A DNA stretch of 64,000 nt from Liolophura sinensis (Eukaryota > Mollusca > Polyplacophora > Chitonida > Chitonidae), in contig NC_088302.1 in assembly GCF_032854445.1 (NCBI RefSeq), forward strand, positions 7,621,338-7,685,337, given 5' to 3'. The notes under the pieces were generated by a model. The model saw only the letters and a program-made list of their open reading frames with translations, had not been told where the DNA came from and did not search any database. This document shows positions 7,750 to 60,200 of the stretch, one piece after another (the stretch's first letter is position 1; every line of letters begins with the position of its first letter). A program made the position numbers and the translations under genes.

Positions 7750-7937
7750 TCATGACCTGAGCAATTTCCTGTCCTGTAAATAAGTGACTAGATCTTGTCT
7801 CTGGATTTCCTCTAACTTCCTTATCAGTGTAGCGAGGGTAGCGGATCCTGACGCTGACCACTCCTTGAACAGCTCATTACATGGGTCTGGTTTGTCCGAC
7901 ATCAGTTCTACTTCACGGTGAGAGAAACCCAAAGCTC
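7750..7937 (-). CDS. Roco terminal exon: Death domain helices 3-6
   Basis: Acceptor TTGTATTTCAG. It reads GALGFSHREVELM..., then ELFKEWSASGSATLATLI and RKLEEIQRQDLVTYLQ, the typical second half of a Death domain, and stops with TGA at 7752-7750. Confidence 0.87.
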
Positions 7938-10900
7938 CTGAAATACAAAGTGAAATATCTGTGTAATAAGTTCTGTATAATACCGGTACCAATTAGAAAA
8001 ACCATGATTTGGCACATATTCAGAATGCTTGGATCCTGATCGAAAGTATGACTTTTGTTGAATCATTTTGTGGGTGTTTTTTGAATGCCTTTCCAGGTAC
8101 CTGACAAAACGACCTGGTTTCGAAAAAATGACACGACTGCGTCATAAAGGATCAGTCCCAAGATTTTGCGACTGGTTCTAATAATAAAGGTTATAACCTG
8201 TTAAAACAGTATATTACCGGGAGCGCCCTCCTAGAAACGAAAAAATGATTTTAAATCCATCGAAACAACCGATTTAATGTCCTAGCCGATCTCCAGCTGG
8301 TAGCCCGGTACGGCACAGCGGATCACGTCACAGATGACCAACCGCATGCTCTCTAGGCTGTATAACCTAGGAATTCGTATCAAAACAATGCCGTTTTTAA
8401 GATGGATTCTACCTACACAGAAGCAAATATACTGCCGGATCAATTTGGATCCCTAGTGGAAGACGGTGAAGTTCCGATTTTTAACACTGACATCTGTTGG
8501 CAGACTTTCGATTCTGAGCTTTCAGACGCTGAATTTGATCGTCGTCCAGGCATTTCCCCCCGCACAAGCAATAGGCACTGGTAAGTGTTATCCTGTGTTA
8601 CACTGTACATATTTTGTGCGTCTATCAAAATTTATCACTTATTTACCCTATTATTCTTTCCCTCTGTCCGCTTCACAACGATTATCATTCTATTCCGGGA
8701 GTACATATATGTATATGTGAGGACAATTCAGTGAATGTTTATTGTCGGCCTTGCGTATAGCCTATGCCTATTTAGTCGTGTACAACATAAATGCACCCAC
8801 GGCTTGGCATAAGTGTGCAAAGATTTGCTATCTTTTAGTTTTCAGTTCAGTTAAGTTTCAAGTTTTTACCGACTGTGACTCCCCCCACCCTCTTCATAGT
8901 AGCCAAATTCTTCGAATTCAGCTGTATTTCTCTCGTAGCTTTCAGTTGTAAAATGACAAGAGTAGACAGCTTTTGTGTGGGTACAACATTCTTCAGTCTT
9001 TTGTCCTGTAAATCCGCGTCTTCCTGAGGGTCAAATCGTTTGGAAACTTGAAAAAACTAACTCCTAACTCCTTCGACGACTCGTTTTTACAACCGTATGC
9101 AAAATAGCAAGACACTTCGAGGAGAAATTCGATATTCTTGTAGTCACTTTTGTTGCTTTTTAACACTAAACTAAATAGCGAAGTTCTGACAGCTCACAAA
9201 GGTTGGACTCGTATGACGTAACTCGGCGGAGACTACCGATTGTTGACGGAAAAAATGCATAGAACTAATCTCATTTTTGAGACTTTAAGTACAATATTAC
9301 TCCCATTAATGTGCCCTTTTTTAACATTTTGGGCACTCAGTTTAGCAATATATACAGGGGATAGTAATTATGAATAAAAAATAGCACTAATCCTTTAATG
9401 AGTAGTGGTATGACTAATGGTACCGGTCGTTAACTCATGTTTCCTCCACCCATAAAACAGTCCTGTTAGTGAAATATTTTTCCGAATGGCGTTAAACACG
9501 ATTGGAATATGTGCCCTAATCAGTATGCACCGATTAATCCAGAATATTTATTAATATTATTAGTTCTTTCTTTAACATGCTAAATCGCCCAATCAAATCA
9601 ACTCACCAGCTAACCCTTTCCAGTCGTTGGCGAGAACGAGTTCTCTGTTCAGAGAAGAACACAGATGCCTGTACACATTCTCTTGAAGATCAAGGACGTT
9701 GGTTTGTAGGTCAAGTTCCTCAAGATTACTCACATTTGTGTACCTTTTACGGCCTGGTCGGTCAATTCGTACCTGAAAACCCGAGATATTATAAATCAGC
9801 CATGGGTGTATGACTTATGGGTGTTTGATTAATCGGTCTTTGATTCATGGGTCTATGACTTATGGGTCTATGACACTTATGGGTCTATGACTCATGGGTC
9901 TATGACTTATGGGTGTATGACTTATGAGAGTTTGATTAATGGGTCTGTGACTCATGGGTGCATGGCTTATTGGTCTATGGGATTTATGGGTTTATGACTC
10001 ACGGGTCTATGACTTATGGTTCTATGACTCATGGGCGCATGTCTTATTGGTCTATGACTCTTGGTCCATGACTTATGGGTCCATTACATGTTCATAAAGT
10101 CAAGGGTCTATGACTTGCGGGCCTAAGACTCATGGGTCCGTGACTCATGGGTGCACAGCTTATTGGTCTATGACTTATGGGTCTATGACTCTTTGTCTGT
10201 GACTCATGTGTCTATGACTCATGGGTCTATGACTAATGGTGCATGACTTGGTGTATGACTTATGGGTCTATGACTCTTGGTGTATGACTCATTGGTCTAG
10301 GACTCATGGGCCTGTGACTCATGGGTCTAGGACTTGTGGGTCTATGACTCATGATGCATGACATGGTCTATGATTTATGGGTCTATGACTTGTGGGTCTA
10401 TGACTCATGGGTCTATGACTCATGGTGCATGACTTGTAGGTCTATGACTTGTGGATCTATGACTCTTGGTCTGTGACTCATGGGTCTATGACTTATGGGT
10501 TTATGACTCATGGCTCTATAACAATATGTACTTTGCTACTTTTAGGCATATACATAAACAGGCCTAATAAAGCCTTGAGTGCGGTTAATTGACAGGAGGC
10601 CGGATTTAACCAGTAATACGTGTGACCGTTTGCCAACTATTACACTGTCATCACAGCTCTGTTTTTACTCTCTCTGCTTTAGCTTTTGTACTATTTTTCT
10701 CATAGCTGATCTTAGATACAGTTTTTGTATGACAGCTTAATTTTCCCAGTCTACGACCGTGTTTCCGTGGTTGCCAACATCACTCGGTATCTAACAGAAT
10801 ACAACATCCTAACCTCTTTTAACTTAACGGGCTAAAATGTCAAGAATGAACGGATTTTTAAATCATTATTCGTTATTGCCTTGAGGCAGCAAAACTGGTC

Positions 10901-13900
10901 ACTACATATCGTTTTGGGATGACCGGAAGAAACATATGATAAAGCAATGTGAATAGCTGAGACTTTGGCCGATGGGATTGAAGACATAGGCTCAAGATAG
11001 ACGACGAAGAGAAGTGACTAAGAAAGTAGCGGTCGCAACGATACCATCCTGATAGTTAGCATTAATCTCAGTATTTTATAACAAGAGATGTTCTGCTTCC
11101 GGAGATGTTTCGAGTGACCGAAGTTAGGAGTTATGGGCACTGCATAAAAAGTAAGGCATTGCTAAACGGGTATATAAAGATAAAGTTTGAATCAAAGCAA
11201 TGAACAAATGCTGAGGGCGGAAGTTGTGACCACTATTACTAGTTACCCGACAGGATAATTTTTAATTACATAATTGAATAAAAATTAAGCGCCGGGAATT
11301 ACACATGTATGAAACAGTAACATTTCCTGTATGAGGTGGCCTGAACCACATACCTTTCCAGACTCGACAACCACTTTCCTTCCGCAGCACACAAATTCCT
11401 TCCGATCAGGAAATAGCTCTGAATCTTTTGAGACACTGCAGGTCAGACGTAGAAGGGCGGGTTTCTGTAACATGAGAAATGGGCATATCTTATAAATCAC
11501 TCTTCAACAACTGTCAAAAGTTACAAAGGAATTGGTACAATGTTAGTATGGAGGGCGGAAATTTCACGTTCAAGCAAAATTCTCACATGTGATTCATAAA
11601 GGTAATATCAAAAGGACACAGAATTTAATGCCGTGATGTAAGGTTAAGTGAAACAAAACTGAAGCAGATTTTGGTAGTGCGGGATGAGTTATGTCAGTGT
11701 AAAGGAAGATAATCATATGCAATGTCTATATCTTGGACAAGACCACGGCGGCCCTAATTTAACAGATAAAATAATATATAAAAACTGATCGCTGTGAGTT
11801 CAAGTCCAGCTCATGCTGGCTTCCTCTCCGGCCGTACGTGTGAAGGTATGTCAGCATCCTACGTATGATGGAGGGTTTCCCCAGGGCTCTCCCGCTGTTG
11901 CATAAGTGTAATATTCTTGAGAACGGCGTAAAATACCAAATCAAATAAATAAATGCCCACCCTGGAGCCATTAATTGATGTTTATCCAAGTTTTGGCCGT
12001 TTAGACCATGTGTGAGATGCCGGAAGTTAATCCAGTTATTATTCCACCCAGCATTTGATAGACCTTGCCACAAAAACATAGAAAGCCAGCTTCAGCAAGA
12101 TGTATCCATCTAATTATGCTTATAAATGCTTTGCGCCGTATTCAGAAAGAACCAAGAAACGACCGCACGACCGCCAGGTAATCACCAATCTTCCTGACCT
12201 AAAGCCGCACATGAACTAACAAGATTTGAACACGCCACTTCCTTTGTCAAGGTTTAGTGGTCATCAGATTTGAATTTTGAATTTGTAAATTATAAGTTAC
12301 ACAATCAAATTACATTAACTATGTCATTTATATATATAAAATGACAATATTGTGTTGTCAGCAATGTGAGTTTGGTTATATGACTCTATGAAGTGTTAGA
12401 GTTTCAAAAAGAGATATGCACAGAGGTGCAAAAGTAACAAGAATTAGACTTCAGCAGTCAAGTTTGTTCTGTTTCATTGTCCATGTTTACATCACACTTT
12501 CCAAATGTCTGTCATTTCTGTGTTTTAGTTACCTGGTATCAAATTACACGTGGTGAGAGGTGAAAATTTGTTGGCACATATATGTCTAACATAAAACCAC
12601 CCCAAATCAAGCCATTGCTATGTTGGCTGTCATCGTTAAAGTGAAAACTTCTTGACTATTGGGTTAAACATACAAGGAAAAAGTGAGTCGTTTTGTAACT
12701 ACTTACACAACAATCTTACCTTTCCTTCTGACAAGTTATGTGGCGCCTCACATGGACACTGCACTCGTAAACTGTAACAGCATTTGTCAAAATTTGAGTG
12801 TACTATAGTCATCAGCCTGGAGTTAAGTTCTTTAATCAGTGGCAAACAGCCGACATGAGACCATGATCGGACTGTAATCCTGAGAAGCTCCCGACAACCG
12901 CTGGATTCCACGTAACCTTTGCATAATTCAAGTTTATAACTGTGCGTTTCTCCAAAATTAAAGAGTGCACAATGTTGATCAATGTTAAATAGTTCCATGC
13001 CGTCGGTAGTAACACTGACGTCGTGGTTGGCGCTACACTGACAGACCAGTCTCAGATAGATAGGGGATACGTTTTGCAGACCAAAGTCCGCGTAAAACAC
13101 ATCATCGTCTTCCTGCGTTTGCCAAACAGTTTGCGCAAGCCTTGGACTGAAGGTCAAACAGGCGGGGATCAGATAATGCTCTCCTGGCAGTAGTCTCTGA
13201 ACGCGGGGTGGTAGACTTACTTTGCACAAAAGATCGTATTTTTCAAATAATAAAGCTATTTTTCTGGGTCCAATGGTGTTGTAAATGTTTGGCGCTACTT
13301 CCTTGAGGACATGACTGAAGAGCTTCTCTGAGCTTACCCCTGATTCCGCGAGTCTGGTCCAGTCGTTGAACACTTCCCTGGATCTTTGGTGTCTTTGTGG
13401 AATTGTTACTATGGCTCCCATGATCTGAACAATCACCCTGGGATCAAACACCACGAGATCTTTCAAGCGATTGTCTTTCACGTTATACATGATCTCGCCG
13501 ACAGAACTAAAGTAAAGCAAGAGATCTTCCAAATCCGAAAGAGTGTGCACTTCGCATTCGGACTTTTTGGTTTTATCAAATACAGCGGAGATATCTTGAA
13601 TGACATCTCCTTGATTTCTGAAACTTTCTATCACATCATAAAATGCCAAGTATCTGACGGGCCACTTTTTCTTCCTGAAAGACGCATTTTTAGCGATGTC
13701 TATAAGAGTTTCTCGTAAGACCTTATGATCAGCGTCCGTTTCGTCGCGTAGGGAGTTCTCCACGGCGAAGAGCGGAACGTCGTTCTTATTCCAGACAAGC
13801 ATTTTGTGGAACACATGTGGGATATCTTCGCGGAGTTGTTTCCCGATGACATGGCGATCCTCGAGTGCAAGTCTTTTGCTATCTCTGTGTGTGCCCACCA

Positions 13901-15401
13901 GTAATACAGGCACCTCTGCAAAGTGTGCATGGGTATAGATGGATTGTATCCAGCCAATAAGCTGGCTTAATACTGCTTTGTAATCGGCTTTTGCATCAAG
14001 CAGGCTGAAGACGCATAAGTACACAGCGTGCCCGCCCATATAGATATGGTGAGTGCAGTGATATAGGGGATGACCCGCAAAGTCCTTTATTATCAACTTC
14101 ACGCATGGCATCTGCAATCTTGTCACTAGTATGTCACTAGCCTTGTTAGATTTCGTACTGGAACTTTCACCGCTGGATTTGGCCAGCATTTTGTTGATAA
14201 AATGTATCGAAGCCACAAAGAATAGGCCGCTGAATAAATGACTAAGAGAAAAGTAGTAGCACAAATCCCAACCGAATACCATCATTGCTAACACACCTGG
14301 AAAAATACCTACGATGTCAACCAAGAGACGCCTCTGCCATCTACACGGAAGAAATCGTTTGAGCCAGGTATTGACAGCCAGGTAACAGTTTTGGCCTGTT
14401 CGTAGAAAAAGCATATGGCTCTGACCACAGCCCAGGCCACTAAACACAGTGCACAAGTATTCCTGAGGAAGGAGAGTTACTAAAACAGCAGTGGAAGGAA
14501 GTAGGACGAAGTATTTGAACCGCCTGAAGTTGTAGGTTGCGATCCCCACCAAAGTAAAAATGGCAAAAATATGTATATGTGGGTTGTACAGTCCACTCAG
14601 ATTGGAAGATTCCTTTGGTGGAGGCGGTCTGGATAAACACAACACAAACAGTAATCCTTTCCCGAGGGAAGCTCCAAGAGGTAATGCTAGTGGCAAATCT
14701 AACACACAGTAAACTATGTACGCTTGAAGGTAAGGAACGAACATCATCGTTGAATCGTGCGAGGATTTGAAATACGAGTCCAGCGTTGGTTTCCATCTCT
14801 GCAGAGCGTCACAGTGCAGTATTAAAGCTACTATGCCAACAGCTATACCTAGTCCATCTTTGACGTCGAATGTCATTGCTGAAACGCTGAAGGTCATGAC
14901 AAGCAACCCTGCTATCCAAGGTGTCGCAGTGAGGGCGTCAGAATATAGTAACGTAAAATAAAGCCACAGTGTCAGGTAGGAAACACCTGCAATTTTCAGG
15001 AACAGTATCACATGGGTGAGATAGAAGGAACCGGAGCCCTTTGGGTTTCCAGTCAGTCTTTGACGCACGCATTGGCCTAGCACTAGGTTGTACTCGTTCA
15101 GATTCGTGTCCTTGATACTAACTGACGCCCACGATTCGGTGACACCCTTCGTGTCCACCATTTCGTGTTCGATCCCCACGGTACTCTCCTCGTGAATGTT
15201 AAATGGCTCATAAGTGAGGAGTCTTCGTAAACTAGTTTTCCCTTGTCTTTCCTTGCCCACAATATTAATGACGACTCTGTAGGAGACATCTTCATCCTTC
15301 TCAAGCGCTTCCCGACGGGCTGCCTGACCCTCTGGACCTGAAATAAGACCGATGCCCGGAGTAATGCCCGCCTTGTATATAGCCTGTTGTTCTGTGCTCA
15401 T
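7750..15401 (-). CDS. Roco-like (Roc-COR) GTPase with internal multi-pass membrane block and C-terminal Death domain
   Basis: Four exons (15401-12720, 11464-11354, 9772-9607, 7937-7750) join in phase to 1048 residues. Seen in order: P-loop GKERQGKT (residues 49-56), a switch-I-like STVGIE (73-78), about eight hydrophobic segments between residues 125 and 402, DFAGH (440-444, G3), GTHRDS (503-508, G4-like THRD), a COR-like region about 580-760 (LLLYFSSVGEIMY..VVFDPR), an unassigned region, then a Death domain about 960-1045 with the DW..LA..LGFS and EEW-like pattern. Roc-COR proteins bind GTP and usually act as signalling switches; Death domains recruit partners in apoptosis and immunity. No kinase, ankyrin or leucine-rich repeats are seen in the gene as modelled. 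An in-frame TAG at 15407-15405 fixes the start. Inference: a membrane-embedded signalling GTPase. No clear polyadenylation signal was found. Confidence 0.85.
9418..9512 (+). mobile_element. SINE family B 3' end
   Basis: TGTTTCCTCCACCCATAAAA, GTGAAATATTTTTCCGAATG GCGTTAAACACGATTGG; in the last Roco intron. Confidence 0.6.
9607..9772 (-). CDS. Roco exon 3: Death domain helices 1-2
   Basis: Acceptor GGGTTTTCAG, donor GCTG|GTGAGT, 55 codons plus one base. It ends ...LANDWKGLA, the conserved DW..LA of Death domains, and splices in phase to the LGFS motif of the next exon. A reading frame on the opposite strand here is a shadow. Confidence 0.85.
9800..10525 (+). repeat. Minisatellite, about 15-bp unit, Roco intron 2
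   Basis: About 48 degenerate copies of TATGACTCATGGGTC and variants. It begins about 30 bases from the acceptor of the Death-domain exon (exon starts 9772), inside the intron upstream of that exon. Confidence 0.9.
11354..11464 (-). CDS. Roco exon 2: linker
   Basis: Thirty-seven codons in phase 0 between acceptor ATGTTACAG and donor GGAAAG|GTATGTG. It reads KPALLRLTCSVSKDSELFPD... and has two neighbouring Cys (CC). No domain was recognised. It is included because both splice sites are strong and its phase fits the flanking exons exactly. Confidence 0.7.
11788..11956 (+). mobile_element. SINE family A, 5'-truncated
   Basis: Starts at the B box (CGCTGTGAGTTCAAGTCCAG) and ends AAATCAAATAAATAAAT. 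In Roco intron 1. Confidence 0.87.
12720..15401 (-). CDS. Roco exon 1 (coding): Roc, membrane block, COR
   Basis: A single uninterrupted 894-codon exon starting at ATG 15401 and ending at donor AAAG|GTAAGA. The preceding bases look like a splice acceptor (TTCTGTTGTAG at 15411), so a 5' UTR intron is likely. All GTPase motifs and the membrane segments lie in this one exon, so the insertion is not an unspliced intron. Confidence 0.92.
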
Positions 15402-15510
15402 TGCCTATCTCTACAACAGAACAAAGAACAGGATGTTAATAAGGTATACCTTAATTTCCACCTGTCTCATTCTCCATAAGATTTTATTTTGGGCAAGGCA
15501 TTGCTGATTT

Positions 15511-23524: not shown

Positions 23525-23835
23525 ATAGCACGCAAGAGTTTGGCACAAAGATTAATAGCGACATATCGCCAAACAACAACCTGACACAAAGATAAATAGC
23601 GACATATCGCCAAGCAACAACATGACACAAAGATACATAGCGACATATCGCCAAGCAACAACCTGACACAAAGATGCATAGTGACATATCGCCAAACAAC
23701 AACGTGACACAAAGATACATAGCGACATATCGCCAAGCAACAACCTGACACAAAGATATATAGCGACATATCGCCAAGCAACAACCTGACACAAAGATAA
23801 ATTGCTAAGCAACAACCTGACACAAAGTAAAAGGG
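23525..23835 (+). repeat. Tandem repeat, 41-bp unit, about 7.5 copies
   Basis: Unit AACAACCTGACACAAAGATA then CATAGCGACATATCGCCAAGC. Because 41 is not a multiple of three, three minus-strand frames are open at once and give the same repeated peptide. Not coding. Confidence 0.92.
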
Positions 23836-25312: not shown

Positions 25313-25960
25313 CGCAGTGTGTAATAGCTAAGTGTAACTGTTGACAAACAGTATCATTATCCATGAAGCAGTGTGTAGTTACTAAGTGTGACTGTTGACA
25401 AACAATATCATTATCCACGATACAGTGTGTAATAGCTAAGAGTAACTGTTGACAAACAGTATCATTATCCACGATACAGTGTGTAATAGCTAAGAGTAAC
25501 TGTTGACAAACAGTATCATTATCCATGAAGCAATGTGTAGTTACTAAGTGTAACTGTTGACAAACAGTATCATTATCCACGACACAGTGTGTAATAGCTA
25601 AGAGTAACTGTTGACAAACAGTTTCCTTATCCATGAAGCACTGTGTAGTTACTAAGTGTAACTGTTGACAAACACTATCATTATCCATGACGCAGTGTGT
25701 AATAGCTGAGTGTAACTGTTGACAAACAGTATCCTTATCCATGAAGTAATGTGTAGTAGCTAAGTGTGACTGCTCACATATATCATTATCCATGACGCAA
25801 TGTGTAGTAGCTAAGTGTAACTGTTGACAAACAGTATCATTATCCATGACACAATGTGTAATAGCTAAGTGTAACTGCTGACAAACAGTATCATTATCCT
25901 TGATGCAGTGTGTAATAGCTAAGTGTAACTGTTCAAAAAATTCATGAAGTAACATTTTTA
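25313..25960 (+). repeat. Tandem repeat, 54-bp unit, about 12 copies
   Basis: Unit CAGTGTGTAATAGCTAAGTG then TAACTGTTGACAAACAGTATCATTATCCATGAAG. The period is 18 codons, so the minus strand stays open for 252 codons (VCQQLHLAITHC repeated). There is no ATG context, signal peptide or flanking exon to support translation. Confidence 0.9.
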
Positions 25961-30590: not shown

Positions 30591-30889
30591 AACCGAATTA
30601 GTGGGAATCAGTGACGGATACATCGTTTAGACCTTTGATGTGAATCCGTGTGATGTGTGTGGGAAGTACGTGCAGCCGAATTGTGTGAATCGGAGCACGC
30701 ACGTCATGTGGACCTGTGATGTGAATGTATGTGAAATGGGGTATATCAAGAAACGGCAGCCGAATTGTGTGAAACTGATTTGAATCCGTTCAAGGTGCTT
30801 CATGTGGACTCATGTGAGTATGTTAATGTATTTGGTGCACCACGTGGACTTGTGACGTATATCCGCGTCATGCCTGTAATAGATACGCC

Positions 30890-31720
30890 ATGTGGACTCA
30901 AGATGTGAGTCTGTAACAGGTACACCATGTGGACTCAAGATGTGAGTCTGTAAAAGGTACACCATGTGGACTCAGGATGTGAGTCTTTGATAGGTACACC
31001 ATGTGGACTCAGGATGTGGGCCTTTAACAGGTACAGCATGTGGACTCAAGATGTGAGTCTGTAACAGGTACATAATGTGGACTCAGGATGTGAGTCTGTA
31101 ACAAGTACACCATGTGGACTCAGGATGTGAGTCTGTAACAGGTACACCATGTGGACTCAAGATGTGGACCTTTAACAGGTACACCACGTGGGCTCAGGAT
31201 GTGAGTCTGTAACAGGTACAGCATGTGGACTCATGATGTGAGTCTGTAACAGGTACAGCATGTGGACTCAGGATGTGGGCCTTTAACAGGTACAGCATGT
31301 GGACTCAAGATGTGAGTCTGTAACAGGTACATAATGTGGACTCATGATGTGAGTCTGTAACAAGTACACCATGTGGACTCAGGATGCGAGTCTGTAGCAG
31401 GTACACCATGTGGACTCAGGATGTGGACCTTTAACAGGTACACCACGTGGGCTCAGGATGTGAGTCTGTAACAGGTACACAATGTGGACTCAGGATGTGA
31501 GTCTGTAAAAGGTACACAATGTGGACTCAGGATGTGAGTCTGTAACAGGTACACCATGTGGACTCAGGATGTTAGTCTGTAACAGGTACACCACGTGGGC
31601 TCAGGATGTGAGTCTGTAACAGGTACAGCATGTGGACTCATGATGTGAGTCTGTAACAGGTACAGCATGTGGACTCAGGATGTGGGCCTTTAACAGGTAC
31701 ACCATGTGGACCCAGGAATA
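30890..31720 (+). repeat. Minisatellite, 37-bp unit, about 22 copies
   Basis: Unit GGACTCAGGATGTGAGTCTG then TAACAGGTACACCATGT. The preceding 250 bases (30640-30890) contain looser related pieces (GTGAATCC, ATGTGGACTC), probably older units. Confidence 0.92.
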
Positions 31721-32133
31721 TGAATCTGTATCAGGTATACCACGAGGGCTGGACCTAGGATGTTCAATGATACAACATACATGTAGGCCTACACCACAAG
31801 GAATGTAGGCTTTATCAGGGGGAAATGGGTTCAAAACGTGTATGTAAACATTTAATTAAAAAAATAAACTCATAAGATTGGATAGGCAGACAGTTGAACG
31901 ACTTTACTGAATAACGTGAATATGGTTATCATATAGAGTGACATTACTGATGAGCAGCCAGGCATGTATCATTAATTACGTTGTACTGTTCATAACGCGT
32001 CCATGTTAACCGACCGATGAACCACTGCGATAACATCGAACTCACTTTATATAAAGAAAAACAACTTTGAGCAGTTGCGTCACGGTTCCTGTGTATTTAT
32101 AACATATAATTGTTTCATGTTTGAACGACAGAT

Positions 32134-37126: not shown

Positions 37127-37478
37127 AAAATGGCATTGAAAGTTAACTACATGAATACTCGGATTTTGTATCTATAGCTACAGACGGTAATGATGTGATT
37201 TTCATCATCATTCTATAAGCAGACGAGGCTATTTTCCTTACTGACTCTATATGCGTCACCAGCCAACCTGATCTCCGTAATGCTTCAGACACATGCTCTA
37301 ATCATTGTATACGTTCAAAATTGTAATATTTATGTTGTAGCACCAAGGCTTAAGCAGAATTGGGTAAAAAATTAGGTAATGCAGTGAAGTTAACTCCTAT
37401 GCCTCACAGCACAGTGGTCTAGAATTACTCAAAATGAAAGTACGGAGCATGCGCTTGATTTCCATTTTCACCAGGGCA

Positions 37479-37845
37479 ATGTCGACGTACCAGAAAGCAG
37501 TGATTGGCGCCCTCGGGGCGGTGGGCACTTCATACGCCGCCTATAAGCTGATGTTCCCGTGGCTAGCTCTAGATTCCAAGGACATTGCCATAAAGGAAAA
37601 GTTAATGGAACTTTTCACCAAAGGCGTGGAAAACAAGTTGTTCATCATAGAGAGGTTTGAGCGTCATGTTGCTGAGAACCCAGACAAGTACTTCGTTATT
37701 TTCGAAGACAGATTATACACATATCAGCAGGTGGATGAAGAGGCCAATAAAATGGCACGAGTTGTAAAGACGTGGAATCTTCAGAAAGGAGACGTTGTGG
37801 CCTTGTATATGAGAAATGAGCCAGCATTTCTGTGGACATTTCTGG
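37479..37845 (+). CDS. FATP copy 1 exon 1: membrane anchor and N-domain
   Basis: Donor CTGG|GTGAGTAC. It encodes [16 protein letters not shown]..., a single hydrophobic helix, then the AMP-synthetase N-domain ([29 protein letters not shown]). ATG 37479 is preferred because indels between the two paralogues shift the frame upstream of it but not downstream. Confidence 0.88.
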
Positions 37846-40800
37846 GTGAGTACGTCACGGACAAAAAGGATACCTCTGGACACCTCTGGGTGAGTTTGTG
37901 ACGGACAAGTATATGTCTGGACACATGGGTGAGTACATCACGGACAAGTATATGTCTGGACATATGGGTGAGTACATCACGGACAAGTATATGTCTGGAC
38001 ACATGGGTGAGTACATCACGGACAAGTATATGTCTGGACACTTCTGGGTGAGTTTATGACGGACAAGTATATGTCTGGACACATGGGTAAGCACTTCACG
38101 GATAAGTATATATTTGGACATCTGGGTGAGTACATCATGGACAAGTATATGTCTGGACACATAGGTGAGTACGTCACGGACAAGTATATGTCTGGACACT
38201 TTTGGATGAGCACATCACGGTCAAGTATACGTCTGAACACTTCTGGAAGAGAACGTCAAGGACAAAAAGAATATGTCTGGACACATAGGTGAGTACATCA
38301 CGGGCAAGTATATGACTGCACACTTCTGGGTGGGTATGTCGCGGACAAAACGTATACCTCTGGACACACAGGTGAGTACACCACGGACAAGTATATGTCT
38401 GGACACGTCTGGGTGAATACGTCACGGACAAAAAGTATATGTCTGGACACCTGAGTGAGTACATCACGGACAAGTATCCGTCCAGACACATATGTGAGTA
38501 CATCACGGACAAAGATATGAGTGGACACTTTTGGGTTACACGTCATGGACAAAAAGTATATGTCTAGACACATGGGTGAGTACATCACGGACAAGTATAT
38601 ATTTGCACACTTCTAGATGAGTACATGACAGAGTATATCAGATATATGTCTAGACACCTCTGTGAGTATACAGACGTGTACCTATATTGGCACACTTCTG
38701 TGTGCGTATATATCTGTACAGATAAGTATACATCTATAAAGGCATAGACATAGGTGTACATATTTTGAGTTGTGCGCAGTACAAAATGGAATAAAATATC
38801 TAAAATCCTACAGATTTTCTGTGCTGGTCACATGCTCGAATCTAGCTCCCGCTTGATCTCCTTCGGCCTTTAGGGACGGATAATCTCAAGTTTTGTACGT
38901 GCATAAATCTGACCTCAGTCTGTTGTGTACAGGTGAAGTTTTCATGCGCAACGCACCAATGAGAACACCACCAACCAGATTTTCCCGATTTGATCTATTT
39001 CGGTGATTGGAGTGCATCAGGATTTGGGTCAGGGTTAAGCTGGGTCATTTCTGAACTAGAACACAATAAGAAGACATAAACTGAACTGTCAGTTGATCAG
39101 TATTTTACAGAACTAGCTATGCAAAGATGACCATTGCTTTTTTGTGTACTTTGTATCAAAAGTTTCCAAACAATGTGTCTGTAGGACTGTTATAAGAAGC
39201 GGTAATCTTCTGGTTTTACCTTATTCGCACATAATTTTGTTTGAGCGGTACAGCTAACATTAATTTATTTGTTACACTTGCAGTTTATCGATTAAAATTA
39301 AACTTTGCGTAAGAAGGTCTGCCAACAGCTTGTGGACGGTCGTTTTCCCCCGGGCTACTCTCAGTTTCCTCCCACCATGATGCTCGCCTCCATCATGTAA
39401 ATGAAATATTCTTGAGCACGGCGTAAAACACTAATCAAATAAATAAATACATGAACAACCATATGTACATAATAAGTATACATTTAACGCAGACGAAATT
39501 TTCGGTATTCAATGTAATACGAGGGATCAGATCGAAATCAATTGGTTATGTTGTCTTCCTTTCAGTAGCTATAACGCACGAGGTGCGAGTTCGAACCCAG
39601 CCTTGGAGGGTATATTTGCTGATACTTCCTCTCTCACCATTCCTGGTAACAATATGCGTTCCGCGACACAAGTGAGACTGTTTGCGCAGTTTAAAGTTTT
39701 ATGACGTTCTCTTGTCTTCCACAAATATGGTGCACAGAGATGTATCTGTACGAGACATGTTTTTTTTTTTGGATTTATTTGATTGATGCTTTACTCAACG
39801 GTATTTCTTTTATGCGACAGCGGCCAATATTAAGGTTGGAGCAATCCGTACAGAGTCTAGGGGAAACCCACGAGGTTGCACACTTTCCTATGCACGTACG
39901 ACCGGATAAAAATGTAAAATGTCGCCATTAACTTGCTTAATGTAGTTTAGTGCTGTCACTCTGGTTTCCTCACACCGTAAAACTAACCACCATTGTATCA
40001 ATGAAACATTATTATTTCTACATCACCGTCTTCTCTTCATTTCAGGTTTTCAGAAGTTGGGTATTCCTGTCAGTCTTCTCAATTGCAACTTGACGCATAC
40101 GCCCTTGGCTCACAGTATAAATGTGTGCGACGCTAAAGCTATTGTCTGTAGTGGAGGTATGTGGTGTGATATCAAGGACAGAATGGTATGAGGAACAATT
40201 CTTGAAATTTCGTTTACAATTTTGATGTGATTTCTTCGGAAATCATTTTGATCATAGTGGGTTATTATGCACGCATTTTTAATACTTTGGCGACAGTTTA
40301 AATAGACGTAGAACGTTTTTAGGCCTACTGTATCAACAGTTCAAGCAGTAGAAGAAATATTCTTCCAGATTTATCACTTCAGACTTCATCGCCGAAGTCC
40401 ACGACTTTTATTGGCCATAGGCTACTGCTTACAATATGCTGGAATAAACGTGACTTAACTTTTTTTCTCGATAATGCAAAAGTGCTGAAGCTGCGTAAAG
40501 ACGAAGTTTCACTAAACTTTACTGGGTTGAAAAAAATTTTAAAATATATTTAATGTCGATTTCAGATACTTTGAATGGTAGTCTTCAAGTGGACATGAAC
40601 ACTAGTCAGGTTGTTGTTTTTTACTTTAAAGGAACTTCTACCTTCAGTATGGGTTAATACTGCCCCCTCCGACTCTGTCAAACTCTGTGTCGACCATAGA
40701 AATAAACCTTACCTGTACATGTACGCCATTGTTCCCATTTTCAGACCCAGACTTGATAAACGCCTTAGGAGAGATCCGGTCGTCTATATCTGGGATTCCA

Positions 40801-43800
40801 GTTTACGTTCACGGGACAGACAGCAGTTCTCTCCCCTCGTCCTTCACCTCGCTGTCGGAACTTGTGGCCACAGTGCCTGGAGACCAAACACCCAAGGAAT
40901 GGCGGACACAAATTCAAAACTACGATCCTCTTGCTTACATCTACACATCAGGGACTACAGGTATATGTATATATACGATGTTTATTTCTTTGCTTGCTTG
41001 GAATTTAACAGCTGGGTTATTACCTGAATACAGTACCAACATATTAATGTTAAAAACGGTATCTCAGATTAGCGATTTCTTTTTTAATAATAATGACTCC
41101 AGCGGAGGCCATCATGTTTTGGCCTCCAAGACAAGTTTGTATGGTGTTGAATATTATGAAACTTTATAACTTTTGCGGTAATGTGGATGTCTGACATATC
41201 GATGTGTAGAGCCTGCACTGTTTATACGTTTCACTAACAAAAAACAAATTTAGGTATTGTGTTTGAGAGATTGTACAGATAGCTGAATTGGGCCTCAGGT
41301 GGAAAGAAAAACACTACAGGTTTCACAATCCACCCATCGAACCATATAGGATTCACCACCTGGGCCTTTACCAACCCAACCAGCTAGGTTTCACAACCAC
41401 AACCTGGGTCTTTATCAACCCAACCAGCTAGGTTTCACAACCTTGGCATGTACCAAGCCAAACAGCTAGGTTTCACAGCTTCAGCCTTTTACCTGCTAAA
41501 CAGGCAAGGTTACACAACCTCGGACTTTACCCTGCTAACCAGCATTTCATGACATTCATCCAACTAACCAGTTACGTTTTATGGCCTTTACTTATCCAAG
41601 CAACTAGATTCCATGGCCTTTACCCACGCAACCAGTTAGGTTTCATCACAACGGTGTACACAACAAACCAGCTAGGTTTTACAACCTCAGCCTTTACCCT
41701 GCCAACTAGCTTGGTTTCACAACCTCTGCCCTTTCCCTGCTAACCAGCTAAGTTTCATGGCATCCATCTAACTAACCAGCTACGTTTTATGGCCTTTACC
41801 CACCCAACTCGTTAGGTTTCACCACAACGGTCTACGCGGCTAGCCAGCTAGGTTTCAAAACTCTGATCTTTACCTGTCTCACTAGCCACATGTAGGCATC
41901 ACCAGCCCGGTCTACGCACCTAACCAGCCAGGTTTCACAACCTCGGCCTTTACCCATCGAACGAGCTAGGTTTCACAGCCATGATCTTAACCCTGTCAAC
42001 TGGCAAGGTTTCATGATATTTTCCAGCTGCGTTTTATGCCCTTTACCCGCCTAACCAGCCAGGTTTCCTAGCCTTTACCACCTAACTAGCTATATTTCAC
42101 AACCTAGACCATTACTTACCCAACTAGCTAGGTTTCACAAACTTGGCCTTCCCCACTCAACCAGTTATAGGTTTCACAATCTCGGCTTGTATCCATCCAA
42201 GCTGCCAGGTCTCCTTTCGGTCTTTACTCAACCACCCAGGTAGGTTACACAAACTTGGTCGTTACACACCCAACCAGCTAGGTTTCCTTGGCTCTGTCTT
42301 CACCCAACCAACCGGCTGAAATTCCTCAAGCTGTCGCAAATTGAGCGTATTGGGCCATAAAAGTATGCTTCATATCGAATGGTTACATTTACTCTTCGTT
42401 CAGAATGCTTTTTGGAATGCTTTTTACCTCGCATGTACAAAGCACACGGGTAGTTTATGTCATAACTCCGAAATCGGCGTCGGCCTCCGAAAAGCAGTGT
42501 TAAGGTAAATGGGGTAGGGTTGTATCTTTAAGTGCTGCATGTATTGATCTCAGGTTTTGCATACATGGAGAGGATAATAACACGAAGAGGGTGTTCCATT
42601 GTTGATTCGTTTTGTATATATTAATTACCGTAAATTACAAAATTCACGACTTCGTGTGTTATGTATTAGAATCAATGGTATGGTGAGTAATGCCTGGTAT
42701 CTGAAGAAGTGCTGCATATATTGACCTGAAGTTTTACATGTACACAAATCACAATGGTATGGGTGGGATATTCTGTCGTCAATACGCTTTGGGTATATTA
42801 TTTGCCGTAGATTACCAAATTCACGATTTCAATCATTTACATATTAAATGCGTACAATTCATAACCATCACCTGTCTGTTTTTGCTTTAGAATCCAGGTT
42901 ACGGTGAATGTTCCAGTACTTATGTATGAAGATGAAGAATTGTATTCATGTGCCTCCCACACTGAGACGGGCTCTTTGGTAGTCTTGCCACGAAATCGAA
43001 ATTTCTCTAAACCATCATTCTGTAATCATTTTCTCTGTTATCTCATTCAATGGCAGGTCTGCCGAAACCTGTTCTGCTGACTCAACTGAAGGGTATCGGC
43101 GTGGGCGAAGTTCTGAGGGCACAGGCAAACCTTTCGGATAAAGACATCATGTATACCTGTCTGCCCCTCTACCACTCCTCAGGATTCTTTCTGGGGATAT
43201 TGAACGTGATTACTACAGGTGAGCTATCAAGGCGCTAATTCAACTGATATGATTATTTATTTGTGAAAACGAACGATCATATCGCTTGACGATCAGTACA
43301 AGGCGAGAGGTTTGTCTCCAGTGTCAGTATAATGTGACTGATTGGGGTGTCATATTTGGTATCACTATAATGTGACTCGGTGGCATGTCATGTCTGGTGT
43401 TCGTATAATGTGACTCGATGGCAAGTCTGATGTCAGTATAATGTGACTGGGTGGGGTGTCATGTCTGATTTCAGTATACTGTGACTGGGTGGCATGTCAT
43501 GTCTGATGTCAGTATAGTGTGACTGGGTGGGGTGTCATGTCTGGCGTTAATATAATGTGCCTGGTTGGGGTGTCATGTCTGATGTCAGTATAGTGTGACT
43601 GGGTGGGGTGTCATGTCTGGCGTTAATATAATGTGCCTGGTTGGGGTGTCATGTCTGATTTCAGTATACCGTGACTGGGTGGGGTGTCATGTCTGATTTC
43701 AGTATACCGTGACCTGGTGGCATGTCATGTCTGATGTCAGTATAATGTGACTGGGTGGCATGTCATGTCTGATGTCAGTATAATGTGACTGGGTGGCATG

Positions 43801-46800
43801 TCATTTCTAATGTCAGTATAATGTGACTGGGTGGGGCGTCGTGTCTGATGTCAGTATAATGTGACTGGGTGGAATGTCATGTCTGGTGTTAGTATAATGT
43901 GACTGGGTGGAGCGTCCTTTCTGATGTGAGTATAATGTAACTGGGTGGGGTGTTATGCCTGGTGTCAGTAGAATGTGACTGATGGGGTGTCATGCCTGGT
44001 GTCATTTTATTGTGACTCAGACAGGGTGGAATGTCATATCTGGTATCAGTGTAATGTGACTGGATGGGGTGTCAGAGCTGAGGCCAGTGTAACGTTACTG
44101 AGGTGGGTGTCGTATGATGTTTCATTATCATATGACTGGATGGCGTGTCATATCCAGTGCCAGTATAATGACTGGGTGGAATGTCATATGTGGTATCAGT
44201 GTAATGTGACTGGATGGGGTGTCAGAGCTGAGGCCAGTGTAACGTTACTGAGGTGGGTGTCTTATGATGTTTCAGAATAATATGACTGGATGGCGTGTCA
44301 TATCCAGTGCCAGTGTAATGGCTTGGTGTGTCATATCTGGAGTCAGTGTAATGTGATTGGTTCTGGGTGTCTTATATGGTGTCATTATAAAGTGACTTGA
44401 TGGGTTGTCATTTGTCACGGTAGTGTTGAGTTTGGTGTCGATGTAATGTAACTGGATTGAGTGTGGAGTGTCATGCCTTTGTTAACGGAACAGATATGTA
44501 AATATGGGGGCCTTGAGGCCAGCTTGCTGGGAGGAGACATCGTCGGGATAAGAACAAAATAATGTAGAAAAGGCCTTAAACTGCAAACAAACAAAATAAC
44601 CAGAGAATAATTTAGCGTCGGTAAATCGGTGGAATGTTGACGGTTTACGCTTGTTAGAGTTACCGTGGATAGAACTGTCTGGCTGCTGTTTAACTATTTA
44701 TTTATTTGATTGGTGTTTTACGCCGTATTCAAGAATATTTCACTTATTCGACGGCGGCCAGCATTGTGGTGGGAAGAACCACACCCGGCCGAAACCAACG
44801 ACCATCCGCAGACTTCTGTTTTACCAGTGCTGGATGTGTTTTAGCTGCAGGTGGGAATGTAAGATAAAATATATTGTTCTCGCAGGATTCCACATAATTT
44901 GAAATCTCAGCAGGATGCTAACATTTACCGAGTTTCACAGATTGGTGGTATTTAGGCCTATGCACCTTCAAATCCCCTAAATATGTTTTGAGTTCAGCTC
45001 CTATTTTTAACCGTCAGAGCACGTATTAATTTTATCTCAGTCAGTTAACGTTCTTCCTGTATAATAGAGTGAAATATGCACATACATAAATGATAATCCC
45101 AGTTAGCTTTGTCATACAATGGGGAGTTTCTGACTATTCTAGCACTCTCAAGATTTCTTTTCATTGCCAGGGGGGACTTGCGTTCTCAGACGGACCTTCT
45201 CCGCGTCTCACTTCTGGGAGGATTGTCGTAAACATAAAGTCACCGGTTTCCAGTACATTGGGGAGTTGTGTCGGTTTCTACTTCTCAGACCGCCAGTGAG
45301 TATATCCTTGTTCGAAGCATAGGAGCTAGAACTTATAAAACATTTTTTCTTTGAGCAAATGTAAATTTTCTACATTTCCTTTCCTTGTTCTAAAGCATAT
45401 GTCATTGTTCATTGAAATAAAAAAGGTGGTTGGACAGATACCTGGCGATGGTCGGTGGTTTACTATGAGTACTCCGAAAAAAATCTCGAGCACTGCCTTA
45501 AATACCAAGTTATAAATCAGTCGGCCAAAGAACTAATTTCTTTTTGTCAGTTTGCAGGAGGTATTCATGATTTTCGAGATTCAAGCGTAGAGATAGTGCT
45601 CGTTGGTCGAAAGCACTTTGTTTAAGTGAGGTTCTCGCCTAAATCATTGTTCTCGCCTAAATCATTGTTCTCGCTTAGAACATTCCTCTTATCTAAAGCA
45701 TTTCTGTTGTCTTATTTCTGTTGAAATATAGAATCGGAAAAAGGGTCGAATTGTTTGTCGCTAACAATAAGGGTCATTGTTCTAAACAAGACAGATGTTT
45801 AGGGTTGAAACAGGACACTGGCCCGAAACATTTGGGATAAGTGACCCTAATATTTGGAGTTGGTGATGTCTATACCCTGAATATCAGGGTCACAGGGACC
45901 CTAGTTTTTCTGGTAGTTTTGACCTTTTCTCTTAACAGGGTGAGCCTCCTTCATTCATAAACCAGTCAACTGTCGCAAAAATTCTTACGTTTTAAACATC
46001 AATCAGTTAAATAAATTACCTTTTTTACCGTGGTTTAAGTTGTTCACAAGTATTAATTTTTCTTCAGCATCCGAAAGACGGTGAGCACTGTATCCGATTT
46101 GCCTACGGGAACGGCCTTCGAAAAGATATATGGGAAGAATTCCAGACCAGATTTAAAATTCCACATATTTTTGAATTTTTTGGTGCAACAGAAGGTCCGC
46201 TTGGTTTCGTTAATCTTCACAACAAGAAAGGTGCCGTAGGGCGGTTATCTCCATATATGGTAAATACTCAGTTTGTAGTCCTCCATCTTACGGCTTCATG
46301 CGTCATAAACGCTAATGAAATCAAGTGAAAACATAGTTTAATTTGTGACACAGTCAGAAATGTCGAGATAAGCCTTCCACTCCCAACCCCTACCCCCACT
46401 CCCAACCCACCGGCTGCATGGTATTCGAACCATCGCCTTGGTTGGTCAGGTGTATTATGGTGGGAATCAGCAATAGCATCCAGATATTCGCACTTTTGCT
46501 CGCGCCAACATAACTGACTAGCCCCGAACACGGAAGCGAAAACATTATTTAAATAGCATGGGAGTTAATATAAAACTCTGCTTCACGGCCTCATAAATCC
46601 AAAACTAGCTTTTGTTTACGTTAGCAAATTGCGTAAGGCGAGTAGACAGTTCTGTTATATGTATATAGACTCAGCTTCTTCGTTCACTTCATAACACCAA
46701 CATGTGAAACACTGACAAATTATCGGTCGACCGATTCAGCCCGTCATTTTCAGTTTCGTTTTCAACTCTTGCTGTTATTACCCTGTTTCTTCTAAAATTT

Positions 46801-49800
46801 GGGACACCTGGCCTGCTCATTTAAGCCAGTATATATGTAATTCTCGCAGGAATGTTGATTTTTTTCTCACATAGTTAAACCATCTAATGAACAACACATT
46901 CATGACTTTTCCAAAGGGCTGGTAAAGACAAGTAATATTCTACTTTCAACACTACTAATATCTGTCCCAAATTTTAGAAGAATTAGGGTATTCCGTTATT
47001 TCTAGCGGTATTCAAAGTACCGCGTCCCAAATGACGGGTCAACGGGTTGTAATTGAAGACTAAGGCGGCAATTTCAAATTTTATGGCGTTTACAAAATAA
47101 CAAGTGATGATTTTTACAAGCTGTAAATAAAAACAAATGTGGGACTTACACCGTCTATACAAACGATGGTAACAGAACAGGGTTTAGAACAAGATTTCTT
47201 CTCTTTGTCCAACAGGCCTGGCGGGATAACTTCTCACAGATCCTAGTGAAGTTTGATCTGGCCACGGCGGAACCAATGAGGGACAAAAACGGCAGATGCA
47301 TCCGAGTAAAGACGGGTGAGTCTAACATAGATAGTTTATAGTGGAACCTTGATTAGTGTAAATCCGAAACACGAAGTTTCGTGTAGGCCTATACTTGACA
47401 TTTATAGAAACATTTGCATGTGCTGCACCACCAACAACGTTCAGCTCCAACTGTTAGCAACACGAGCACAAATTCCTTCCACAAATTAATTAATGGATTA
47501 AACCACGTGTCATTAGTAATGAATGCTGCATTCAACCATATTACTGTATAGTCCAGTCGTGATTCCATGATATAAAAACGACGGCTCGACTAGCTTCGAT
47601 CCCAGTAAGCATTCGATCATATTACTGTATAGTCCAGTCGTGATTCCATGATATAAAAACCACGGGCTCGCTATAGCTTCGATCCCAGTAAGCATTCGAT
47701 CATATTACTGTATAGTCCAGTCGTGATTCCATGATATAAAAACGACGGCTCGGCTCTAGCCTCGATCCCAGTAAGCATTCGATCATATTACTGTATAATC
47801 CAGTCCGTGATTCCCATGATATAAAAACGACGGCTTGGCTATAGCTTCGATCCCAGTAAGCATTCGATCATATTACTGTATAATCCAGTCGTGATTCCAT
47901 GATATAAAAACGACAGCTCGGCTCTAGCCTCGATCCCCAGTAAGCATTCGATCATATTACTGTATAGTCCAGTCGTGATTCCATGATATAAAAACCCACG
48001 GCTCGGCTCTAGCCTCGATCCCAGTAAGCATTCAACCATATTATTGTATAATCCAGTCGTGGTTCCATGATATAAAAACGACGGCTCGGCTATAGCTTCG
48101 ATCCCAGCATCAAACAAAAGCTGTCTACTTCAAGCTCGACTTGAAACAATGTACTTTCTCGGGATTGTGGGATTGTGATTATTCTTGTGAGCTAGCGATT
48201 TTGAACTTGTAGGCTTGTTATGGTGAGCCTATGCTTGTTAGCTTATGGTTACGAGCTCGTGATTGTGAGCTTACGCTTGTGAGCTTATGATTTGGCGCTT
48301 AAAATTGTGAGGTTATGGTTATGAGCTATTATCGTAATCTTGGCTTGGTCTGTCATGCACTATATATACACTATATATCGAGAATTTTTTCTCTTCTCCA
48401 AATGTACTCCATGCGTGTTTTATAGCTAAGGATGTGAGATTACCTAGCACATATTGAAATAATCACCTTTCCTTGTTCACCGGGACAATTAACCCTTAAC
48501 CAATATAGTCCCGTGTTCGAATCCAGCTCTCCTCTGTTTCAACTGCGTCAGGAGGTTCTCAAGGTATCTGGCGAAGGTCGGTTACTTAGCCTATCCTGAG
48601 AACTCCCGGTTTTCTTCACCCAAAAGCGTTTACCAGAGATTAGGGGCGTCTATCTTAATCCCACTTTAAATAGCAATCAGGTTAATAAAATAAATACCTA
48701 CTGTACTATTCTCATCTCTAGTGACCATTACCTACTGATACTAGGAGAGCGGGTGGCATGTAGGCAAGCAGGCTTCTGAATGGGTTTGTGGGTACTGACA
48801 CCTGATGTTAAGTTAAAGTTAACTGATGGTGGTCTTCAGTGCACGCTTGAAATGTTCTCATCGAAGGTAGCATGAGAGCATCAGGCAGCCAGTAGTGTTG
48901 CATAGATTTAGAATTATTGATAATTGTATGCATTTAAACGACTATTCAAAAACAAGGATGAAATAAATGCCGTAGATTTGGCTTGTGGTTATAGCCTTAC
49001 ATGACATTCTTGTATATGGTAAGCGCTTATATTGAATTATGAATGTTTCGCTTTGTCTAATTGTATTTTATGTAATTTGTGCAATGAGATGCATCCTTCA
49101 TGTCTTTTATGACACTATCTATATGTACACATCTTTTGGTCAGCTTTACAACTTGAAGCATTTAACTGTGCTTGATGTTCAGTATAAGATCGGACATTGC
49201 TCGGTGGTCGTATACTGTGATTATGGTGCCATGTTCTTGTTTAGTGAGGCAGCACCTTTAAGTTCAGCACACAACTGGTGTGATAGAATCAGTATAAAGT
49301 TGAAAGCAGTGGTAACCACAAGCAACCAGGAGCCTCCATCAATGCGGTCATTGTGAGTTCAAATCCAACTCATGCTTGCTTCCTCTCCGGCCGTACATGG
49401 GAAGGTCCGCGAGCAATCTGCTGACGGTTGTGGTTTTTCCCCTGGCTCTTCCCCATTTGCGACGGCCGGTCGTTGTCGTATAAGCAAAATATTCTTGAGT
49501 ACGGCCTAAAACACCTATCAAATAAATGAATAAATAAGCCACATGCAAGGCACCACCAAACAAACCAAATCTCTCCACATCTTTTCTCTTGGCTTTTCGC
49601 TGAAGGTGAACCAGGCCTGCTGCTTACGGCCTTCCCGCCCTTCGCCCTTCATTAAGCCGGATGATATTTACCTGGGAGATAAGAAGAATGTGGAAAAGAA
49701 GCTGGTCCGTGACGTCATGGTTAAGGGAGACATTTACTTTAACTATGGGGACATTCTCTACCAGGATAAAGATTACTTCGTCTACTTCACTGACCGGATA

Positions 49801-59535: not shown

Positions 59536-59833
59536 TAAAGAGTAAAACCAGAGCAGCGAATTCAGTGTGATAATTGACAAATGGTCACAGGTAACCAGTG
59601 AAATACGGCCTCTTTTCAGTTTATCTCAGTTAGTGTTTTTTTCTGACTATGTATGTAAATGCTTAAATAATGGCAAATTATACGTACCATGGCTTGAGCA
59701 GAATTAGGTAAAAATCAGGTAATGCATTGAAGTTAACTGCTATGCATTAACTCCATTAGAAATCAGCGGTCTACAATCTCTCAAAATGAAAGCACTGAAC
59801 ACACATGCGCTTGATTTCCATTTCACCAGGGTA

Positions 59834-60200
59834 ATGTCGATGTACCAGAAAGCAGCGATTGGCGCCCTCGGGGCGGTGGGTACTTCATACGCAGCCTACA
59901 AGCTGATGTTTCCGTGGCTAGCTCTAGACTCCAAAGACATTGCCATGAGGGAAAAGTTTATGGAGTTTGTCACAAAAAGCGTGGAAAACAAGTTGTTCAT
60001 CATTGAGAGGTTTGAGCGTCATGTTACAGAGAACCCAGACAAGTACTTCGTTATTTTCGAAGACAGATTATACACATATCAACAGGTGGACGAGGAGGCC
60101 AATAAGATCGCACGAGTTGTAAAGACGTGGAATCTTCAGAAAGGAGACTTGGTGGCCTTGTATATGAGCAATGAGCCAGCATTTGTATGGACATTTCTGG
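59834..60200 (+). CDS. FATP copy 2 exon 1
   Basis: It reads [16 protein letters not shown]... to WTFLG with donor CTGG|GTGAGT. A second donor in the same phase (CTGG|GTGAAT) sits exactly 45 bases downstream at 60245, so its use would add 15 residues without a frameshift. Confidence 0.87.

Follow-up and report, generated by a model that had tools for sequence, protein, structure and literature searches.

Can a GTPase be folded around its own membrane domain? The question is raised by one exon in a 64,000-nucleotide stretch of the genome of the chiton Liolophura sinensis (hereafter the window, to which all coordinates refer unless stated otherwise), where the original prediction had placed a multi-pass membrane block inside the Roc domain of a Roco-type protein. 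The ORF list contains at this point a 900-aa open frame (12699-15401, minus strand), around which a gene of four coding exons was modelled:

12720-15401, minus strand: coding exon 1 with 894 codons (Roc in two pieces, predicted membrane block and COR-like region); open frame with ATG at 15401 and a donor of 8/9 at 12719
11354-11464, minus strand: modelled coding exon 2 of 37 aa, in phase 0, with a donor of 8/9 and an acceptor of 0.73
9607-9772, minus strand: modelled coding exon 3 (55 codons and 1 further nt), in which the death domain begins
7750-7937, minus strand: modelled coding exon 4, which completes the death domain and carries the stop; acceptor at 7937 or 7934

The modelled protein has 1048 residues, the same length as the model behind the original prediction, or 1047 if the acceptor at 7934 is used. 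The phases of exons 2-4 are consistent with exon 1, and the modelled splice sites score 8/9 as donors and 0.60-0.80 as acceptors. Exon 1 most likely spans acceptor 15410 to donor 12719; because this acceptor is followed by an in-frame TAG before the ATG at 15401 is reached, a coding exon upstream of 15401 is not expected. An acceptor at 15404, weaker than the one at 15410, would bypass this TAG. Modelled intron 2 carries a 15-bp minisatellite of ~49 copies (9802-10519).

The G motifs that the original prediction had located within a single exon are all exactly where it put them, in order and in the one 900-aa frame, and the Roc profile picks them up as two separate pieces:

15257-15234, minus strand: P-loop (G1) GKERQGKT, aa 49-56
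15185-15168, minus strand: switch I (G2) STVGIE, aa 73-78
14084-14070, minus strand: G3 DFAGH, aa 440-444
13892-13881, minus strand: G4 THRD, aa 504-507
15168-15269, minus strand: N-terminal Roc piece, aa 45-78 (P-loop and STVGIE), on Pfam Roc profile positions 2-35
13881-14114, minus strand: C-terminal Roc piece, aa 430-507 (DFAGH to THRD), on Pfam Roc profile positions 52-119 and the LRRK2 Roc alignment

Taken alone, each piece falls below the Roc cut-off of 27 bits, the N-terminal 79 residues matching profile positions 2-35 at 19 bits (E 0.0018) and the C-terminal half matching positions 56-119 at 25 bits. The intact 900-aa frame rises above it, with 44.6 bits in two stretches, and so does a construct from which the block was removed in silico (residues 89-427 deleted, chain stopped at 640), which gives a single match of 54.8 bits running from position 2 to 119 of a profile of 119. 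Aligned with the Roc domain of LRRK2, the best solved relative, the block-removed sequence shows only a one-residue gap near the junction; counted on this alignment, 391 residues separate G1 from G3 in the split Roc, against 53 in LRRK2. Thus, the idea of a membrane-type block lodged within one Roc domain gains support, as the halves fit complementary parts of the profile and a full match emerges once the block is taken out. Since the match is full-length and the LRRK2 alignment nearly free of gaps after block removal, the insert is placed between beta2 and beta3 (structural names that we take to hold for this point), where it replaces the beta2-beta3 turn of the interswitch, between switch I and G3. 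Retained in the two halves are K55, T56, T74, D440, G443, T504 and D507, which we take to be nucleotide-site residues. By the profile scores the protein carries the Roc domain with G1-G4 that characterises the Roco family.

The insert itself, ~350 residues long, resolves into a series of hydrophobic segments:

14115-15167, minus strand: inserted block, aa 79-429, about eight hydrophobic helices (hydropathy and helix calls)
14943-15011, minus strand: predicted TM1, aa 131-153, strict cut-off
14868-14924, minus strand: predicted TM2, aa 160-178, strict cut-off
14802-14858, minus strand: predicted TM3, aa 182-200, strict cut-off
14634-14690, minus strand: predicted TM4, aa 238-256, weak, lax cut-off only
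14526-14582, minus strand: predicted TM5, aa 274-292, strict cut-off
14457-14513, minus strand: predicted TM6, aa 297-315, weaker, middle cut-off
14268-14327, minus strand: predicted TM7, aa 359-378, strict cut-off
14196-14258, minus strand: predicted TM8, aa 382-402, strict cut-off

Six strong and two weaker predicted helices between aa 131 and 402 agree with the "eight or so" of the original prediction, the number of segments being 6, 7 or 8 at the strict, middle and lax settings of a predictor that uses a membrane-insertion scale with our own position weights, so that the cut-offs are rough. Outside the block the same predictor called nothing at the strict and middle settings and one segment at the lax setting (aa 452-470, inside Roc); in control ORFs from the chiton's own genome the strict, middle and lax calls were 0, 0, 0 (L010), 0, 0, 1 (L011) and 0, 1, 1 (L012). 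A 19-residue hydropathy scan found one further peak beyond the block, at aa 649-667 in the COR-like region. The block is probably a membrane block. It has no significant match in Pfam, NCBIfam or PDB sequences, and its one match in PHROGs (E 0.13) is not significant.

The 354 codons of the block contain no stop, against a mean of 21.5 and a minimum of 7 in presumed-noncoding DNA (360 overlapping windows, plus strand). Codon usage, scored from a training set of two ORFs, is weakly coding-like in the block (-0.05), compared with 0.03 to 0.17 in the rest of the exon and a background of -0.20 (sd 0.09, maximum -0.003). The best donor at its front edge (aa 78-131) scores 6/9, against 8/9 at the modelled sites, and the best acceptor at its rear edge (aa 400-440) 0.47, against 0.60-0.80. 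A retained intron was rejected on these weak splice signals in the two scored edges together with the absence of stops.

For one nucleotide site to form, both Roc halves should lie on the same side of the membrane, and the original prediction accordingly called for an even number of crossings. Charge bias does not confirm this: the two best-scoring of 16 models (bias 13 and 12) have an odd number of crossings, the next two (11 and 11) an even one, and a model close to the eight-helix arrangement, with both ends inside, has a bias of 7. In all 16 models the better orientation assigns the C-terminal side to the cytosol. As the N-terminal part carries the P-loop half, which would be expected in the cytosol, an even number is favoured, and we infer a membrane-spanning block whose two ends are cytosolic. 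The structure prediction suggested as a check did not help, since single-sequence AlphaFold models, with a mean pLDDT of 37.5 for the 900-aa frame and 40.8 for the block, were too poor to use.

Behind the split Roc lies a possible, divergent counterpart of the region that accompanies Roc in Roco proteins:

13158-13628, minus strand: COR-A-like region, aa 592-748 (Pfam COR-A, E 3.4e-4, 21 bits)

This match lies where COR would be expected, but its 21 bits fall below a curated cut-off of 35.3; it is the weakest of 12 found by a COR-A profile search of the genome. Far clearer is the death domain on the joined exon tail (PF00531, E 1e-12, 48.4 bits, cut-off 22.6), whose nearest solved relatives are p75NTR, MyD88 and NRADD. 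On the modelled exons the protein thus ends, like the DAPK1 group, in a C-terminal death domain, which is an addition to the architecture first described. In the 900-aa frame, to which this search was confined, there was no Pfam match to a kinase, LRR or ankyrin; no TIR match was found in the protein, and the ORF had no match in PADLOC or PHROGs.

Relatives were sought in the chiton's own genome (609 Mb), scoring the best first-look candidates for the C-terminal half, the block and the N-terminal piece (2, 4 and 1, respectively). The block and the N-terminal Roc piece each found only themselves there, and the C-terminal half found itself and a 33% match to a piece of one other Roco-like ORF (E 0.0066). 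In scans of viral and prokaryote contigs, whose reach is limited to close relatives, 0, 11, 18 and 4 stretches fitted the pattern, and none was a relative. As far as these searches show, the gene is single-copy. In three other Roco-like loci that were read (L010, L011 and L039) G1 to G3 is uninterrupted; by eye, L010 and L011 appear to be LRR-bearing and a further locus, L046, DAPK-like. The reading frame of L039 changes after G3, its G1-G3 part and COR part lying in two overlapping frames (G000:C12:9310559 region), and an intron or frameshift therefore separates them. Other split Roc matches in the genome (15 pairs, 30 of 108 matches) were considered as similar inserts and rejected, since by eye they are small GTPases of the ordinary kind, whose reading frame is closed between one piece and the next. 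Elsewhere in the genome and outside the window, 17 partial Roc matches (profile positions 11-84) with nearly equal scores follow one another at ~2.43 kb spacing (G000:C1:37680085-37719079) and probably reflect a GTPase gene repeated in tandem.

How far does this architecture depart from what has been described? With the Roco proteins (LRRK1/2, DAPK1, MFHAS1 and the prokaryotic LRR-Rocos) it shares ordered Roc motifs and a COR-like region behind Roc; it differs in the membrane block within Roc and in a COR-A score below the curated cut-off, and its 900-aa frame matches no LRR, ankyrin or kinase family. The DAPK1 group and other death-domain Rocos of animals share Roc, COR-like region and death domain with it, whereas the chiton protein has no kinase, LRR or TIR match and carries its membrane part inside Roc. 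In the accessible text of one review, DAPK1-type Rocos with a death domain form a separate group beside the LRR-Rocos and the kinase-bearing Rocos (PMC6337361). The available part of another paper mentions death and CARD domains in Roco genes of Trichoplax and, for Ectocarpus, Roco proteins whose C-terminal parts resemble transmembrane proteins (PMC4104024); there the transmembrane-like parts are C-terminal rather than an insertion in Roc. TLR- and MyD88-like genes bearing ROCO domains are noted for Aplysia in the accessible passages of a further study (PMC9334734). A survey that, in its available portion, retained 11,268 of 13,085 database matches as ROCO gives up to forty domain combinations for animal ROCO proteins (PMC11378527); its threshold of 1e-15 might overlook a Roc split so widely. 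The original statement that no Roco of this build is known holds within bounds: none with membrane helices inside Roc appeared among the literature matches listed, in the parts of those texts available and in a coverage consisting mostly of journals other than subscription ones.

The closest precedent in design comes from the KAP P-loop NTPases (Kidins220/ARMS, PifA, Tmn), which have membrane segments inside a P-loop domain. Kidins220 and PifA belong to this family, reportedly treated by Aravind et al. in 2004. KAP members, some of them with four helices and others with two, are not Roc GTPases, whereas the chiton protein has a Roc and about eight predicted helices. Tmn is described, in the available text, as having two unusual transmembrane domains (PMC11846954). 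By prediction the split Roc, too, has helices inside a P-loop domain, a likeness of design and not of membership; no Pfam match to the KAP NTPase profile was found in the 900-aa frame at E <= 1. Two further departures from the standard Ras-like layout invite comparison. Heterotrimeric G-alpha subunits, too, have an insertion between G1 and G3, but theirs is a soluble helical domain ahead of switch I, whereas the split Roc has its membrane block behind it. Another Ras-like GTPase with an altered arrangement, cpRAS, is circularly permuted, with the motif order G3-G4-G5-G1-G2 according to the accessible part of its description (PMC2430557); in the split Roc the motifs are in order and separated by the insert.

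How the parts are ordered, that Roc is complete without the block and that the modelled exons encode a death domain can be read from the sequence, and at that level the architecture is real and unusual. We consider that it may represent a membrane-embedded Roco-type GTPase whose Roc interswitch houses a membrane domain of about eight helices and is followed by a COR-like region and a C-terminal death domain, and give this reading a probability of about 0.5. The two Roc halves would meet at the cytosolic face of the membrane and form one nucleotide site there. A ligand, a lipid or the mechanical state of the membrane domain could then exert a pull on the strands of the interswitch. These run straight into switch I and switch II, and the pull would in this way set GTP binding or hydrolysis; COR-mediated dimerisation would in turn expose the death domain to MyD88- or FADD-like partners. 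The insert is joined without a break to the strand behind switch I at one end and to the strand leading into G3 at the other. A shift of the helix bundle would thus be felt at the nucleotide site, for which the interswitch toggle of Arf offers an analogy. That a membrane signal is coupled to the nucleotide state is plausible, and the full chain from membrane domain through interswitch and COR dimerisation to an exposed death domain is put forward tentatively. With the same reserve, the protein might be called a receptor-like GTPase, a polytopic sensor in the interswitch hairpin that allows a membrane event to set the nucleotide state and trigger death-domain signalling within one polypeptide. 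Membrane receptors normally reach GTPases through separate exchange factors, and we know of no death receptor with a GTPase. If true, the arrangement would link membrane, GTPase and cell-death or immune signalling, in that order, within a single chain. Furthermore, the split Roc would permit a direct test of the interswitch as a lever on the Roc switch, with a bearing on LRRK2.

Several observations count against a membrane-embedded, signalling Roco GTPase: a block-bearing homologue is absent from all sequences searched, the two top-scoring charge models have an odd number of crossings, COR-A and each Roc piece alone stay below their cut-offs, AlphaFold pLDDT is low and the block resembles coding sequence only weakly in its codon usage. 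A first alternative, which we think rather unlikely, makes the block an anchor around which Roc folds, leaving a constitutively membrane-bound death-domain Roco GTPase that senses nothing. The beta2-beta3 turn would plausibly tolerate an insertion without loss of the site, as the full-length match without the block suggests, and in the available text of the survey brown-algal Roc domains likewise contain inserted non-conserved sequence (PMC11378527); yet about eight helices exceed what an anchor would need, and anchors would usually be expected at the ends of proteins. The odd charge models and the divergent COR would suit a protein whose halves cannot meet, or whose crossings are odd in number, so that only a membrane death-domain scaffold with Roc remnants is left. 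We regard such a dead GTPase as improbable, given that the nucleotide-site motifs, whose loss would be expected in a dead domain, are intact in both halves.

Both remaining accounts dispute the block itself. It could have arisen by intron retention, misassembly or the fusion of two genes, to which the lack of a second copy or relative in the sequences searched and the weakly coding-like codon usage lend something; this is very improbable in view of a frame that is the same at both junctions and free of stops over 894 codons, of the weak splice signals in the edge stretches scored and of an insertion at one particular turn of Roc. Least credible of all is a hydrophobic domain that resides outside the membrane. 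The membrane assignment does derive from hydropathy, two of the eight score weakly as helices and the COR-like region has a hydropathy peak too, but at the strict cut-off there are six helices in the block and none either outside it or in the three control ORFs.

The remainder of the window is rich in minisatellites. Arrays with units of 37-83 bp lie at 23544-23802, 25314-25933, 30874-31742, 43322-44411 and 47528-48107. AMP-binding matches (acyl-CoA synthetase/FATP-like) occur in two open frames that resemble each other (37380-37901 and 59723-60412, plus strand), and each frame runs into a minisatellite of ~40 bp, at 37833-38626 (19.5 copies) and 60184-60618 (10.6 copies), respectively. The units of these two arrays often contain GGTGAGTA, a splice-donor-like motif with 9 and 3 exact copies in the arrays against 1 in the other 62,771 bases (plus strand), and it seems that the splice donor itself has been multiplied.
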